From contig NZ_CP093301.1 of assembly GCF_024362785.1 (NCBI RefSeq), forward strand, positions 1 to 64,000: 64,000 nt of DNA. The letters are read 5' to 3'. Every line of letters starts with the position of its first letter. The first letter of the stretch is position 1. The notes under the pieces are model-generated. The model did not search any database. It had not been told where the DNA came from and worked only from the letters and a program-made list of their open reading frames with translations. Position numbers and translations under genes: made by a program. This stretch comes from Evansella sp. LMS18 (GTDB lineage: Bacteria > Bacillota > Bacilli > Bacillales > Salisediminibacteriaceae). This document shows positions 34,811 through 43,453 of this stretch, one piece after another.

Positions 34811-35383
34811 CTATTCTTCTAAATCACCCATGAGGAAGTTCGGATCAAGATCCTCAAAGTCTTCATCTTCTACATCATAATCCCAGACTTTCTCATCCCA
34901 GTCATCATTGATTCCATCAGGATTAACATATACACAAACCTTTGTTTCCCCGATTACTTCTACAAGGAATTCCCTCTCTACCTGGACATTCACATCGTTT
35001 CCATTTGAAGCGATGGTAGCTTCCAGCGTATTAGGCTGCTGTATGGCTCTGGCAACTACTTCCATTTGGTTTGAAAGGACGTTTTTATCCTGCATTGTAA
35101 GAGGCACTACGTCCTTATAATAAACCGTCTCAGTTGCCACGTTCGTTTTCGTATTGTTGCTGTAGGAGTACCAAATGTTGCAATCGTAATGGCCGTTGAT
35201 CTCAATTGCGTCTCCTTTTTTCGCTGCCTCATATTTGTGGTTAATAATCCAGCATCCTAAAATACTTGAAGGCTGCTGTGCAGGCGTGATAGCGTGGCTT
35301 GCCTGCGAAAACTTTCTTCCTTTGCCGCAAACGGCTTTCGTTATTATCTCTCTGTAATTTAGCTCTCTGTCTGCTGGTGACAT
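34811..35383 (-). CDS. cotE: Outer spore coat morphogenetic protein CotE
   Basis: A 190-residue protein matching Cot[15 protein letters not shown] near the start, [20 protein letters not shown], and the highly acidic tail with D-D-W-D-E and D-L-D-P-N-F-L. CotE is made in the mother cell, encircles the forespore and organises outer coat assembly. It sits in the conserved miaB-ricA-cotE-mutS neighbourhood. An AGGAGGGAAAAG ribosome binding site precedes the start. Confidence 0.95.
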
Positions 35384-35770
35384 GCTTTTCCCTCCTCAAA
35401 CAATTGATTGACGCGCAGCAAACTAAAAATCTTAAAAATCAAGACGGTTTCACTTGCATCATATGCAAGACAAATGACCAATGTGTCAATTAATCTCTGC
35501 CTAATTCATCGTATGAAGAAGATGAAAAAATAGTTCTTGGAATTCTTTTTTTAAGTTTGAGAGAAAAAGAAAACCAGATACCAGCACTCATAAGCATGCA
35601 CTCTCCTCCACAGTTCAATTATTTATATGTCGTCAAGACGAGGTTCATGAATGAGAATTGGATTTTTTGATTTATTTATTAAATAATGTACGGTATGTGA
35701 AATATATTCGAGGCGGATTATTAAAAAGTGTGATGGTGTTGCGCTAACAGTTATTACTATATAGAAGGAT

Positions 35771-35861
35771 ATCGGCGAAATTGTTTTTTTATCGGCGAAG
35801 TGGGGTGATTTATCGGCGAAATATTAATTTTATCGGCGAAATCATCTTGTTTATCGGCGAA
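35771..35861 (+). repeat. R5 array A: five TATCGGCGAA repeats at 20/21-bp spacing
   Basis: ATCGGCGAA begins at 35771, 35791, 35812, 35832 and 35853, i.e. spacings of 20, 21, 20 and 21 bp. All five copies are identical across ATCGGCGAA. The spacers are AT-rich and unrelated to each other. The array sits alone in the 35384-35985 gap between cotE and ricA. The 35384-35760 part of that gap shows nothing else I can name. The period is not a multiple of three over two units, so it is not a coding repeat. Confidence 0.85.
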
Positions 35862-35985: not shown

Positions 35986-36408
35986 TTAACAGCCATGAGA
36001 GTCAAACGGGCTCTTTGTAGTAGTCCCTTTGAGCAAATCTCCGCCAGTTGACTTAATAATTTCGTTTGTTACTGTATTGGAAATCGTGCTGCTTACAAGC
36101 TGAAGCAGATTATTCACTTCCTGCTGTGACTGCTTAAATTCCTTAACAAGAGGAATGCTGTCCAGCTCATCCTGCAGTGCATCAATTCTCTCCTCCACAG
36201 CCTTCAAAGCTTCTGTTTTCTGGTAATGCTGAAGATTTACCGCTTCTTTCTGTTCTGATTTAATTTTTCCGATGATCTCCTGTACTTTCAGATGCTCATT
36301 AATCTGAAGCTCTGCACGTTTGAAGAAATCAACCTCTTCTGTCTCAGCGATCATCTTAGCTAGTTCTTTCGCGCGGTCTACAACTTCCTGTTTTGAATAG
36401 TTTGCCAT
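35986..36408 (-). CDS. ricA: RicA (YmcA) family protein
   Basis: A 140-residue all-helical protein of the YlbF/YmcA family with the typical A-K-E-L-A-K-M-I-A-E-T-E-E-V-x-F-F-K-R-A-E start and a central coiled coil. RicA works with RicF and RicT in a complex that affects mRNA maturation by RNase Y, biofilm formation and sporulation in B. subtilis. The C terminus ends in H-G-C. Its ATG shares a base with the miaB stop codon (TAATG). RNase Y itself is encoded at 45505-47067. Confidence 0.9.
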   Translation of the reverse strand: MANYSKQEVVDRAKELAKMIAETEEVDFFKRAELQINEHLKVQEIIGKIKSEQKEAVNLQHYQKTEALKAVEERIDALQDELDSIPLVKEFKQSQQEVNNLLQLVSSTISNTVTNEIIKSTGGDLLKGTTTKSPFDSHGC

Positions 36409-39352: not shown

Positions 39353-40396
39353 TTATGGGTGCAATACCACTTTTCCACATTTTCCTGCTTTCATCAAGTC
39401 AAAACCCTTTTCAAATTCTTCTAAAGGAAAGTGATGGGTTATCATTGGCTTTACGTCAACCTGACCTGAGCTAAGCAATCCGGAAACTTGCTGCCATGTT
39501 TCGTACATTTTGCGTCCTGTAATACCCTGGACAGTGATTCCTTTAAACACAATATCATTTGTAACATCGATTTCAACCGGTCTTACCGGAAGGCTTAAAA
39601 TTGATACGCGCCCGCCGTTCGTAACCATTTTGAAACCTTGATCCATAGCGATCGGGTGCCCGCTCATTTCACAAATCACGTCTATCCCGTTTCCGCCAGT
39701 AAGCCTGGAAGCAACTTCAAGGGGATCTTCATTTTTGGAATTGACGACCGTTGTTGCTCCCATTTCCTTAGCAAGCTCAAGACGGTAATCGTTCAGGTCA
39801 AATGCGATAACCTGTGACGCGCCCGCTGCTTTGGCAACACCGACAGCCATGATGCCAATCGGCCCGCAGCCAATAACGGCAACTGTTTTACCTGCCACGT
39901 CACCAGCCAGCACTGTATGCACAGCGTTTCCAAACGGCTCCTGTACACTAGCCACGTCGAAAGGCAGTGCCGGATCGTTTTTCCACATGTTTTCTGCTGG
40001 AAGTGCTACATACTCAGCAAAACAGCCGTCACGGTCCACACCGATGATCTCTGTGTTTGCGCAAATATGGGCCTGGCCGGTTAAACATTGAGGGCAGTGT
40101 CCGCAAACGATATGTGTTTCTGCTGATACATGGTCCCCTACTTCTACATTCTTTACAAGTTTCCCTTTTTCCACTACTACTCCTGCAAATTCGTGACCGA
40201 ATACATAAGGAGGCTTAACCCTGCTTTGAGACCATTCATCCCATGTATAAATATGAAGGTCAGTGCCGCAGATAGAGGTTGCTTTCACTTTAATAAGAAC
40301 TTCCTGGTCCCCGATTTCCGGAACCGGTACTTCCCTGAGAACAGCACCTGGAGCTCTTTCTTCCTTCACGATCGCTTTCATCATTTTTTTCTCCAT
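39353..40396 (-). CDS. tdh: L-threonine 3-dehydrogenase
   Basis: A 347-residue zinc-dependent medium-chain dehydrogenase. The catalytic zinc ligands lie in T-S-I-C-G-T-D-L-H and G-H-E-F-A-G. The structural zinc loop is C-G-H-C-P-Q-C-L-T-G-Q-A-H-I-C. The NAD-binding G-C-G-P-I-G-I-M-A-V follows. It oxidises threonine to 2-amino-3-ketobutyrate. The Y-T-W-D-E-W segment is typical of Tdh rather than other alcohol dehydrogenases. GGTGGGAAACAA precedes the ATG. Confidence 0.95.
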   Translation of the reverse strand: MEKKMMKAIVKEERAPGAVLREVPVPEIGDQEVLIKVKATSICGTDLHIYTWDEWSQSRVKPPYVFGHEFAGVVVEKGKLVKNVEVGDHVSAETHIVCGHCPQCLTGQAHICANTEIIGVDRDGCFAEYVALPAENMWKNDPALPFDVASVQEPFGNAVHTVLAGDVAGKTVAVIGCGPIGIMAVGVAKAAGASQVIAFDLNDYRLELAKEMGATTVVNSKNEDPLEVASRLTGGNGIDVICEMSGHPIAMDQGFKMVTNGGRVSILSLPVRPVEIDVTNDIVFKGITVQGITGRKMYETWQQVSGLLSSGQVDVKPMITHHFPLEEFEKGFDLMKAGKCGKVVLHP

Positions 40397-40506: not shown

Positions 40507-40655
40507 CGTTCTTATGAATCTATTATTTTTGTATGAATGCTTCAATTTATTTTAGCACGGGGGAGTGTATTCGTAAACAGAACAGTCCATGGAGTACGGA
40601 CAAATTTGTTAGGGATGCGTTTTGGGAAAGCTAATAGTTTACTGTAAAGCCTGTT

Positions 40656-40746
40656 TCGCCAATAAACTGCTGGATATCGCCAATAAAATTAAATTTTCGC
40701 CAATAAACCCCTGGGTTTCGCCAATATAATGAGCGTTTCGCCAATA
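40656..40746 (-). repeat. R5 array B: five TATTGGCGAA-type repeats at 20/21-bp spacing
   Basis: Plus-strand TCGCCAAT begins at 40656, 40677, 40697, 40718 and 40738, spacings 21, 20, 21 and 20. On the minus strand the unit is ATTGGCGA, one base different from array A (ATCGGCGA), and this variant is shared by all five copies. It lies in the 40397-40842 gap between the oxidoreductase beta gene and tdh, next to an R1 copy. Nothing else is recognised in that gap. Confidence 0.85.
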
Positions 40747-40842: not shown

Positions 40843-41709
40843 TTACATAAATTCATTTACGAGTTTTTCAAACTGCTCTTCGCCAAGTTCAAGGTCCTGG
40901 CTGGCAAGCGGCTCATCTTTGAAACCACTAACGAGAGATTCATAGGACGGCTTTTCTTTATCCTGGTAAATCAGACCTTTTACAAGCCCGTTATGCTTGA
41001 TCAGTGTGCTCATAGCTGAAGCACGGTCTGCAGGATCGTAGCCTTCTATATCTGAAAGTGAAGTAAGATTTTCTTTAAACCAGTCATATGTGTTCACTTT
41101 ATTGAAGGTAACGCATGGACTGAATACGTTAATTAGTGAAAATCCTTTATGCTCAATCCCCTGTTCAATGAGGGAAGTAAGCTCCTTCAGGTCACTGGAG
41201 AAACTCTGGGCCACAAATCCGGCACCTGCAGACAGGGCCAGCTCCATTACACCAAGTGCAGATTCAATGGAACCGTTTGGTGTACTCTTCGTTTTGAATC
41301 CCATCTCACTTCTTGGGGAAGTCTGCCCTTTTGTCAGCCCGTAGATCTGGTTATCCATGACAATATAAGTAACATCGATATTGCGGCGGATCGCATGGAT
41401 CGTGTGGCCCATACCGATCGCAAAACCGTCGCCATCACCACCGGACGCGATTACTGTTAAATCACGGTTGGCCATTTTCACGCCTTGTGCGATTGGAAGT
41501 GAGCGCCCGTGAATGCCATGGAAGCCATAGGAGTTAATATAGCCTGATATCCTTCCTGAACAGCCTATACCGGAAACTACAGCAAGATCATCAGGTGTTA
41601 TCCCCACATTAGCTGCCGCACGCTGAATGGCAGCCTGTACGGAAAAATCTCCGCACCCCGGGCACCAGTTAGGTTTAACATTGTTTCGGAAGTCTTTAAA
41701 GGTAGCCAT
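40843..41709 (-). CDS. 2-oxoacid:ferredoxin oxidoreductase, beta subunit
   Basis: A 288-residue thiamine-diphosphate subunit: N-W-C-P-G-C-G-D-F-S-V near residue 14, G-I-G-C-S-G-R, G-I-H-G-R and the ThDP motif G-D-G-D-G-F-A-I-G-M-G-H running to M-D-N-Q-I-Y-G-L-T-K-G-Q. It matches the KorB/OorB type acting on 2-oxoglutarate or related 2-oxoacids, but the substrate is not fixed by sequence alone. The start at 41709 follows AAGGAG and lies 1 bp past the alpha stop. The longer reading from 41769 overlaps the alpha gene. Confidence 0.9.
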   Translation of the reverse strand: MATFKDFRNNVKPNWCPGCGDFSVQAAIQRAAANVGITPDDLAVVSGIGCSGRISGYINSYGFHGIHGRSLPIAQGVKMANRDLTVIASGGDGDGFAIGMGHTIHAIRRNIDVTYIVMDNQIYGLTKGQTSPRSEMGFKTKSTPNGSIESALGVMELALSAGAGFVAQSFSSDLKELTSLIEQGIEHKGFSLINVFSPCVTFNKVNTYDWFKENLTSLSDIEGYDPADRASAMSTLIKHNGLVKGLIYQDKEKPSYESLVSGFKDEPLASQDLELGEEQFEKLVNEFM

Positions 41710-41710
41710 A

Positions 41711-43453
41711 TTAGAACAACTCCTTGCATTTCGTATGAATTTCAGCCGGAAGGAACGGATTTCCGTCATATTTTAAAATGGAGTGAATATCCTGCATCGC
41801 AAGATTCATTTTGATCAGGCTGGCAAGCTGCCCTGTCGCGTTATTTTCCACAACTACAACTTTTTTCGCCTTTTTCGCCATCTCCTGTACTTCATCTGCA
41901 GGGAATGGATGGAGAAGCCTGATTTGTCCATGGTTGACTTTCAGACCGTCTGCTTCAAGGCGGGGAAGCACTTCCTGGATAGTACCTCTTGTGGAGTTGA
42001 ACCCAAGAACGAGAAGGTCCGCTTCTTCATGGCGCTCATCTTTATATACTGGATCAGGGAAAACTTCTGTAAGGTTATTCAACTTCCTCATACGCTTATC
42101 CATCTGCGCCTCACGGTTTTCAGGTGCTTCCGAAGGTTTACCCTGTTCATTGTGCTCGACACCAGTTACATGGAAAATTCCGTTTTTCATGCCTGGAAGC
42201 ACACGAGGGGAAACCCCGTCTTCCGTTAGTTCATAACGCTTGAAGTACTGGCCTTTTTCCAGCTCTGGTAATTCTGCATTTAAATCCAGCTTCCCTCTGC
42301 GGATCTCTACTTTGCTGAAATCCAGCCGCTCAACCGACTGTTTTCCAAGTGAAAGAGCAAGATCTGACAGGAGGATAACCGGAACCTGATACTCTTCCGC
42401 GATATTAAACGCTTCAATAGTGTCATAGAATGCTTCCTCAACTGTGGAAGGAGCAATGACAACTTTTGGAATTTCGCCGTGAGTCCCGTAAATCATAGCA
42501 AAGAGGTCCGACTGTTCCTGTTTTGTCGGAAGGCCAGTACTCGGTCCGCCGCGCTGCGTATCAACAACAACTAATGGCGTTTCAGTAATACCGCTAAGCC
42601 CGATAGCTTCCATCATCAGTGAAAGACCTGGACCTGCAGATGCTGTGAGACTTCTTACCCCGGCATAGTTGGCGCCGATCGCCATCGTACATGCCGCGAT
42701 TTCATCTTCCGTCTGAATGACAGTTCCGCCGAATTCCGGAAGCTTTTTAATCAGATATTCCATGATTTCAGATGCAGGCGTAATTGGATAAGCCGGCATA
42801 AAACGCGCCCCTCCTGCAACCGCACCTAATGCGATTGCATCGTTTCCAATCATGTACATTCTTTTCTCGCCATCTGCTTTTTCAAGCTGGAAGTCTCCGG
42901 TAAGGCCCTTTGCCTCATTCGTAAAGTACTCCATTCCTTTTACGATGGCCTCCATATTTTTCTCCACTACAGATGCGCCTTTCCTGGCAAAGATCTGATC
43001 TACCACACTTTGGAAAACTTCTGCCTTCAGGCCAAGCAGTGCGCTCGTTGCTCCCACTGCCACCATATTTTTCATCAGAGATGTCCCCAGCTCTGTCGCA
43101 ATCTCTGTAAAAGGCACAGAATACAATCTTGCATTACATCCTTCCGGAAGCTTTGGTGAAAACTTGCTGTCCCCAATAATTACGCCTCTGCTGCTAAGTT
43201 CATGGTGGTTTAAATCTATCGTTTCCTGATCAAAAGCTACTAAAATATCTAAATCGTCTGATATAGAATTCATCGGTTCGATGCTCACGCGAATTTTATT
43301 ATTCGTGTGGCCCCCTTTAATACGTGAAGAAAAGTGGCGATACCCGTACAGGAAATAGCCTTGACGGCTTAATGCCATTGAAAAAATTTCTCCGGTACTT
43401 TCGATTCCCTCTCCCTGTTGTCCGCCAACTTTCCAGGAAAGCTGCTTGATCAT
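41711..43453 (-). CDS. 2-oxoacid:ferredoxin oxidoreductase, alpha (gamma-alpha fused) subunit
   Basis: A 580-residue subunit in which the gamma domain (about 1-190, G-G-Q-Q-G-E-G-I-E-S-T-G) is fused to the alpha pyrimidine-binding domain (about 200-560: A-Y-P-I-T-P-A-S-E-I-M-E, T-A-S-A-G-P-G-L-S-L-M-M-E, R-G-G-P-S-T-G-L-P-T-K). With the beta subunit it oxidatively decarboxylates a 2-oxoacid with CoA and reduces ferredoxin. No ferredoxin or delta subunit gene is adjacent, as in many aerobic two-subunit forms. The 43454-43792 gap upstream contains the spoVS terminator and probably its promoter. Confidence 0.9.
   Translation of the reverse strand: MIKQLSWKVGGQQGEGIESTGEIFSMALSRQGYFLYGYRHFSSRIKGGHTNNKIRVSIEPMNSISDDLDILVAFDQETIDLNHHELSSRGVIIGDSKFSPKLPEGCNARLYSVPFTEIATELGTSLMKNMVAVGATSALLGLKAEVFQSVVDQIFARKGASVVEKNMEAIVKGMEYFTNEAKGLTGDFQLEKADGEKRMYMIGNDAIALGAVAGGARFMPAYPITPASEIMEYLIKKLPEFGGTVIQTEDEIAACTMAIGANYAGVRSLTASAGPGLSLMMEAIGLSGITETPLVVVDTQRGGPSTGLPTKQEQSDLFAMIYGTHGEIPKVVIAPSTVEEAFYDTIEAFNIAEEYQVPVILLSDLALSLGKQSVERLDFSKVEIRRGKLDLNAELPELEKGQYFKRYELTEDGVSPRVLPGMKNGIFHVTGVEHNEQGKPSEAPENREAQMDKRMRKLNNLTEVFPDPVYKDERHEEADLLVLGFNSTRGTIQEVLPRLEADGLKVNHGQIRLLHPFPADEVQEMAKKAKKVVVVENNATGQLASLIKMNLAMQDIHSILKYDGNPFLPAEIHTKCKELF

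Follow-up and report, generated by a model that had tools for sequence, protein, structure and literature searches.

The window analyzed here is a stretch of 64,000 nucleotides from Evansella sp. LMS18, in which two short arrays of direct repeats lie between genes (Table 1). All four genes flanking the arrays are carried by the minus strand, and a terminator-like hairpin, recognized by eye, lies between the ricA/ymcA-like gene and array 1. A motif search of the window found exact copies of TATCGGCGAA in array 1 starting at 35770, 35790, 35811, 35831 and 35852. The first-pass annotation had described five repeats at 35771-35861 with steps of 20, 21, 20 and 21 bp. This description is exact, and its coordinates are correct because ATCGGCGAA starts one base after TATCGGCGAA. 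Array 2, which that description did not include, contains four exact cores and one with a single mismatch, the fourth in motif order (TATTGGCGAT). TATYGGCGAA occurs exactly at nine sites in the window, all within the two arrays (five in array 1 and four in array 2), and six pairs of ATYGGCGAA are 20-21 bp apart, compared with a maximum of zero in 200 first-order Markov simulations.

Table 1. Repeat arrays, their flanking genes in the window and a related array elsewhere in the Evansella sp. LMS18 genome
Feature	Position	Strand	Description
Array 1	35770..35861	+	Five TATCGGCGAA cores, steps 20, 21, 20, 21; terminal inverted copy absent
Array 2	40655..40746	-	Five TATTGGCGAA cores, steps 20, 21, 20, 21 in motif direction; terminal inverted copy absent
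cotE, outer spore coat protein E	34811..35383	-	Flanks array 1; Pfam CotE 4.9e-89
ricA/ymcA-like gene (YlbF/YmcA family)	35986..36408	-	Other flank of array 1; Pfam Com_YlbF 1.1e-22
Zinc-dependent alcohol dehydrogenase-type gene	39353..40396	-	One flank of array 2; gene call and profile search
Ferredoxin oxidoreductase beta-type gene	40843..41769	-	Other flank of array 2; gene call and profile search
ATCNNCGAA array	L215 about 1280-2400; about 2471.8-2472.9 kb of the genome		

A scan of the whole genome (4.9 Mb, a single contig), which the first-pass annotation had named as a possible refutation, instead showed the motif to occur much more often, and at much more regular distances, than expected by chance. 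YGGCGAA pairs at 20-21 bp numbered 48 (2 for the reversed control pattern), and triples with this spacing numbered 24 (0 for the reversed control). The census holds 21 array loci and one variant; each entry needs an exact pair, so that arrays without one would escape the count of 21. Among the 100 sites listed of 188 single ATYGGCGAA sites, all 39 spacings below 80 bp were 20, 21, 40 or 41. Five copies are the norm, being present in 15 of the 21 arrays when up to 3 mismatches per copy are allowed, and in 12 of the 14 arrays retrieved from E. clarkii. An inverted copy directly follows the last core in 14/21 Evansella sp. LMS18 arrays (e.g., TATCGGCGA-CC-CGCCAATAAA). The spacers had initially been called unrelated and AT-rich. 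In Evansella, those of 20-bp steps do tend to be A/T-rich; those of 21-bp steps tend to be G-richer and certain spacers recur in Mesobacillus-type genomes, so the description as unrelated did not wholly hold. These step-dependent and recurring spacers make a 41-bp dimer the natural unit of many arrays.

Related forms occur in the same genome: an array of ~1.1 kb in which about 50 degenerate ATCNNCGAA units are organized into a higher-order repeat of 82 bp (four units), and a AATCGGCGAA/AATCAACGAA array. Two arrays about 1.2 kb apart (L034, Evansella sp. LMS18 positions 3981979 and 3983174; L093 in E. clarkii) are present in both species. In E. clarkii they match one another almost exactly, which their orthologues do not; this suggests exchange between the two E. 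clarkii arrays. E. clarkii also has several 51-52-bp tandem arrays, of the other constant-length class (L222 9000-9530 and 17640-18056; L223 5870-6381 and 11090-11187).

Tandem repeats with constant lengths of 20-21 and 52 nt, of unknown function, have been reported in Bacillus (Subirana & Messeguer 2021, PMC8161180). According to the main text of that paper, a genome may contain several families of one length, and Table 4 lists 30 such repeats in B. selenatarsenatis (now Mesobacillus). Its 20-21-nt repeats share with the window arrays their unit length, at least four copies, non-coding location and a short conserved signal per family. The first-pass annotation knew of no described element of this form, whereas this paper had already pointed out that the unit spans two helix turns and put forward a polymerizing protein or small RNAs. 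Both window arrays are members of the published 20-21-nt class, with five copies each at steps within its unit length. The first-pass view that array 1 is not coding is borne out by an NCBIfam search in which its two overlapping ORFs gave no match and by stops that interrupt the frames in the E. clarkii orthologue; a peptide-coding array was rejected on this basis. Array 2 is located between called genes. As in the published class, several families of one length coexist: TATYGGCGAA, ATCNNCGAA with its 82-bp higher-order unit and AATCAACGAA in Evansella sp. LMS18, and AATCGCAACAAG and ATCACGCGGAA among those in E. clarkii. The published families are mostly species-specific in sequence, a trend with exceptions (PMC8161180), whereas TATYGGCGAA spans Evansella, Mesobacillus, Neobacillus and Robertmurraya. 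The 52-nt repeats also correspond to about whole helix turns but differ in unit length and motif (PMC8161180), and they occur in stretches of E. clarkii as well.

Several other systems were considered. CRISPR loci have longer exact repeats, unique spacers and cas genes; with 10-bp cores, 10-11-bp spacers and 21 dispersed loci, the arrays are not CRISPR-like, in agreement with the initial view. Plasmid iterons and ParR/TubR-type centromeres consist of directly repeated sites, sometimes about two turns apart, that are cooperatively bound by one protein. They are replicon-specific and lie beside the gene for their protein, whereas the present arrays occupy about 21 dispersed chromosomal loci; no replication initiator or ParR/TubR-type protein gene is found among the immediate neighbors of the window arrays, and a plasmid iteron origin was rejected given the genes that flank them (cotE, ricA-like, dehydrogenase and oxidoreductase). 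REP/BIME elements have a palindromic unit of about 20-40 bp, and membership in this group was rejected because the arrays are direct repeats, with an inverted partner only at the last copy and in neither window array. A polar replication motif of the KOPS/SRS type was likewise rejected, as the motif strand does not follow replication (8/21 arrays are co-directional, taking dnaA at 1,929,856 as the origin and assuming the terminus opposite).

The exact triple was present in only 2 of the 40 genomes searched (own genome included), those of Evansella sp. LMS18 and E. clarkii, and missing from 38, including 7 of the 9 genomes of the genus. It was not found in the cotE-ricA gaps of six other genus genomes. 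Its function is thus either dispensable or carried by other motifs. In two same-genus genomes (L071 and L074), a different, dispersed-looking sequence replaces the array in this gap. The core itself was also detected in Neobacillus, Robertmurraya, Mesobacillus, Cytobacillus and Bacillus methanolicus (at least 80 loci among the matches listed in a scan of named genomes). It occurred in 3/398 genomes of a class-level sample, own genome included, and in 29/151 genomes of the Mesobacillus-type family. TATYGGCGAA is common to at least four genera, and array ends and step lengths depend on the genus. Steps are mostly 20 bp in Robertmurraya (47/52) and mostly 21 bp in Neobacillus (69/82), and both lengths occur in Evansella and in the Mesobacillus-type group (our own grouping, which includes Cytobacillus and unnamed Bacillus), among arrays caught by a 20-or-21 pattern. 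A phasing of 10.25 bp is therefore not universal. None of the viral contigs scanned carries the three-repeat pattern, and a phage origin of the arrays was rejected on this ground. Mesobacillus-type arrays were seen in a record titled Chryseobacterium sp. ISL-80 (L109, L139), whose label is probably wrong. A match in Paludibacteraceae (L138, 3128-3200), a 21-bp AAAGGCGAAAGG repeat that is probably coding or due to chance, was excluded as a member.

Comparison with E. clarkii was possible for 19 of the 21 arrays (L019 and L038 fell outside it); for alignment, the IS was bridged at the three sites that it interrupts. The array is present in 17 of these 19 orthologous regions, reduced in one (L028) and essentially absent from another (L021). 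Leaving Y aside, the eight core positions differ at 21/675 aligned bases (3%), spacers at 145/769 (19%) and flanks at 648/4932 (p=8e-23 for core versus spacer over the 19 arrays); unaligned bases numbered 61 in cores, 84 in spacers and 768 in flanks. Most of the E. clarkii loci had been chosen for intact cores, which leaves four arrays retrieved by synteny alone as the fair subset; here, 8/101 core and 34/111 spacer positions differ (p=2.8e-5). Such homogeneity of the cores could also arise by gene conversion. Two arrays differ between the species by whole repeat units.

The Y position behaves differently from the rest of the core. It differs at 31/85 aligned cores, and 30 of these 31 are T in Evansella sp. 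LMS18 and C in E. clarkii, a difference that may have arisen in either direction. The differences are concentrated in six arrays that are switched wholly or nearly so. Both species have T at 14 aligned cores, of which L007 and L009 account for ten. Overall, E. clarkii has C at Y almost throughout (71 C, 4 T, with the orthologues of L007 and L009 left out), Evansella sp. LMS18 has both bases (43 C, 37 T) and Mesobacillus-type genomes have T. The unswitched T arrays L007 and L009 are among those whose E. clarkii orthologues (L231 and L235) carry an IS; a third array with an IS (L033/L228) has mostly C in each species. We read the T/C switch as reflecting a putative trans-acting recognizer with a shifted preference. 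Conversion within arrays is the alternative, and the two unswitched arrays favor it somewhat.

The same orthologue comparison exposed a 1.5-kb element that encodes IS3-family OrfA and OrfB proteins. Its OrfB matches NF033516 transpos_IS3 (200.7 bits, cut-off 160) and rve, its OrfA matches HTH_Tnp_1, and its target duplications are 4-5 bp; with an OrfA HTH, an OrfB DDE transposase and a short target duplication, it belongs to the IS3 family. Five copies are present in E. clarkii (L228, L231, L233, L234 and L235) and one in Evansella sp. LMS18 (L229), and no full-length copy was found in the seven remaining genomes of the genus. Every one of the six interrupts a 20-21-bp array; the motif of the array is TATYGGCGAA in four cases and AATGNACGAA in one, and the sixth copy sits in a long AATCGCAACAAG array. 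At three insertion sites the sister species retains the array without the IS, so that the arrays predate the insertions.

Relatives of OrfB (E up to 1e-80) were identified in 20/299 genomes of the order, own genome included, at 25 other loci with 46-63% identity. Nine of the 26 loci represent the same lineage by their ends and by the tree, a membership settled after flanks and ends had been inspected, and most of these nine lie in arrays of differing motifs. A second set, fixed beforehand by E-value, comprised 11 new loci, one of which (L270) was left out, its 3' end lying beyond the contig; 8 of the 10 usable sites are in arrays (7 phased and 1 of 51 bp). As Tandem Repeats Finder missed a known degenerate array beside an IS, periodicity was assessed with 6-mer distances instead, requiring 5 or more pairs at 19-22, 40-43 or 61-63 bp as well as a value above the maximum of 300 shuffles that preserved base composition only. 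Eighteen of the 24 distinct lineage sites pass this test, one more (L266) has a period of 51 bp and is the lineage's single hit in the 52-nt class, and five fail; these sites are partly non-independent, six coming from one genome (G821) and three (L240, L268 and L269) sharing genus and motif. L236 and L229 are one insertion and entered the count once. By eye, three of the failing sites resemble worn arrays (L239, L241 and L255) and two do not (L271 and L272). Only 1 of 104 control windows passed, and this window reaches into an array. In a sliding-window version, 14/18 lineage sites and 1/17 sister elements passed at a threshold of 5, and 12/18 and 0/17 at a threshold of 8 that was picked after the values were seen.

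In the tree, most array-dwelling copies form one supported group (99/96), and L262 lies in a neighboring group together with the failing L271 and L272. Identical or near-identical copies within one genome (E. clarkii; G821) occupy arrays of several motifs; hence, the sites share the period, not the motif sequence. Nine plasmid records carry an OrfB with about 49-51% identity. IS insertion marks the arrays as targets without showing that they serve the host. REP-targeting IS are the nearest precedent that we can offer by analogy for this behavior. Tobes & Pareja (2006, PMC1525189) describe REP elements as landing sites for certain IS (ISPsy8, 5/5; ISPa11, 6/6), including members of the IS3 and IS110 families; IS1397 and ISPsy8 are of the IS3 family, and REP targeting by IS1397 was shown experimentally. 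Both systems involve dispersed extragenic repeats that serve as specific IS landing sites, but REPs are palindromes of fixed sequence (PMC1525189), whereas the targets here are direct-repeat arrays of unrelated motifs with only a whole-turn period in common.

Because phasing gives curvature to any repeated sequence, curvature is a candidate for the feature that IS targets share, beside a protein coat. A wedge model, with provisional parameters, was compared with dinucleotide shuffles. Mean z was -1.47 for Evansella arrays (n=27), -0.51 for other genera (n=47) and +0.09 for window controls (n=63), and -2.45 for IS targets (n=24). The end/contour ratio rose from 0.919 to 0.960 with units 5 bp shorter and was 0.924 with 10 bp added. 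The model thus predicts that arrays curve above chance and IS targets more so.

We infer from these features that a putative protein docks on the arrays. This reading, in which the arrays would be one-face docking platforms for an oligomerizing DNA-binding protein, exploited by a specialized IS3-family lineage, is one that we hold tentatively, at a little short of an even chance; a one-face protein-binding array is nevertheless the best among the readings tested. Array 1 would belong to a set of about 21 such platforms of the constant-period 20-21-nt class, which are non-coding, scattered over the genome and for the most part built of five copies. A sequence-specific protein may bind each TATYGGCGA core, and cores placed every two helix turns would align its molecules, touching, on one face as a short cooperative oligomer. 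The oligomer might bend or hold intergenic DNA, serving nucleoid or loop organization rather than control of a single promoter. Binder and core would drift together, giving C in E. clarkii, a mixture in Evansella sp. LMS18 and T in the Mesobacillus-type group, and the phased array, bare or coated, would be the preferred target of the IS3-family lineage. The first-pass annotation had proposed a cooperative protein-binding array; the evidence favors recognition of double-stranded DNA on one face, and binding itself we infer. Regularity, dispersal, the five-copy norm, core conservation, the T/C switch and IS insertions in unrelated motifs count for the docking reading; the absence of the triple from 38/40 genomes, the missing L021 and reduced L028, the incomplete Y switch and the non-universal phasing count against it. 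A bolder version is possible, though we lean against it: the IS3 lineage would recognize helical phasing itself (period 20.5 or about 51 bp), and a fast co-evolving trans-acting binder would keep the arrays, its change of preference having rewritten the same core base in at least six of them. Phasing might then be read by the transposase itself, or by a host protein that polymerizes along one DNA face and on which the transposase docks. The two arrays without the base switch lower our confidence in both of these readings and raise it for a neutral origin.

Under such an origin, slippage and dispersal would spread a neutral or selfish satellite that is harmless between genes and has no function, with conversion homogenizing its cores. 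We regard this as unlikely, although it retains appreciable weight: the distribution is patchy, copy number changes between species by whole units, the 1.1-kb array has expanded with an 82-bp higher-order unit, end sequences are genus-specific, and T/C differences run array by array with two arrays unswitched. What it explains poorly is that 17/19 arrays are kept in E. clarkii, where cores have changed far less than spacers, that most have five copies, and that 20-21 bp is preferred, as slippage alone gives no such preference. Curvature could instead be what is selected, since sequence repeated in helix phase sums small bends; the arrays would then be maintained as bent DNA at plectoneme apices or for packing, and the transposase would prefer bent DNA. 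The wedge model, in which curvature above dinucleotide shuffles is reduced with 5-bp shortening (half a turn) and regained when 10 bp (a full turn) are added, is in line with this proposal, which would also account for a constant period with variable sequence and for IS targets that have only the period in common. Its effect is modest outside Evansella, the wedge parameters are provisional, and curvature by itself gives no reason for a 9-bp core to be conserved amid drifting spacers; we consider the proposal unlikely.

It is improbable, in our estimate, that the IS inserts anywhere and that only copies in harmless arrays persist. The arrays are indeed intergenic and dispensable in many species; however, sister IS3 elements from this order have survived at sites outside arrays (0/17 versus 12/18 in arrays at the threshold of 8, set afterwards), and the arrays listed span about 1.1 kb of 310 kb in a sample partly chosen for arrays. 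Least probable of all, and by our judgment very improbable, is a role at the RNA level, with the array transcribed and working as a small RNA or an RNA-protein sponge in the way suggested for the 52-nt repeats. The suggestion is in print (PMC8161180; PMC8625621), and the terminal inverted copy could form a hairpin in 14/21 Evansella sp. LMS18 elements. Palindromic-looking spacers were convincing as RNA hairpins by eye, but the shuffle test did not support them: covariation between spacer halves and between core flanks was absent overall (total z -2.59 to +0.96), with pairing above expectation at a single position in 13-nt spacers of other genera (65 versus 45.7 expected, sd 4.3). Five of six stretches folded no better than shuffles and one element reached z -2.21; the window arrays, on both strands, also folded no better than shuffles, and an Rfam scan of the window gave 0 matches above the gathering score. 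Without overall covariation and with folding like that of shuffles, DNA rather than RNA is indicated as the acting form. Array strand relative to genes showed no clear preference either (24 sense, 32 antisense). Divergent gaps hold 1/56 classified arrays in other genera and 6/33 in Evansella, compared with 52/240 background gaps, after leaving out 13 arrays inside ORFs (crude ORF caller) and 5 at locus edges; avoidance of divergent gaps as a property of Evansella arrays was therefore rejected.

We found no core/spacer contrast, T/C switch or terminal inverted copy in the main text of PMC8161180, and it makes no mention of transposition, insertion sequences or mobile elements. In the open-access literature, we found no report of IS linked to 20-21- or 52-nt repeats, and among the matches listed in a search with motif strings, titles look unrelated. 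What appears to be new is the constraint on the core, the switch of one base across whole arrays and, most of all, IS targeting that does not depend on the motif. Constant-period bacterial repeats have so far been catalogued without a known function or partner. Conserved cores, free spacers, an array-wise base difference and a motif-independent IS narrow the question of function, and together suggest a protein or DNA-structural feature common to the arrays, in the way that REP-targeting IS do for REP sequences. An IS lineage that resides mostly in arrays, of any sequence, offers a handle on what these arrays do. If it does read phasing, this IS would provide a first molecular probe for the putative protein responsible for such constant-period repeats in bacteria.
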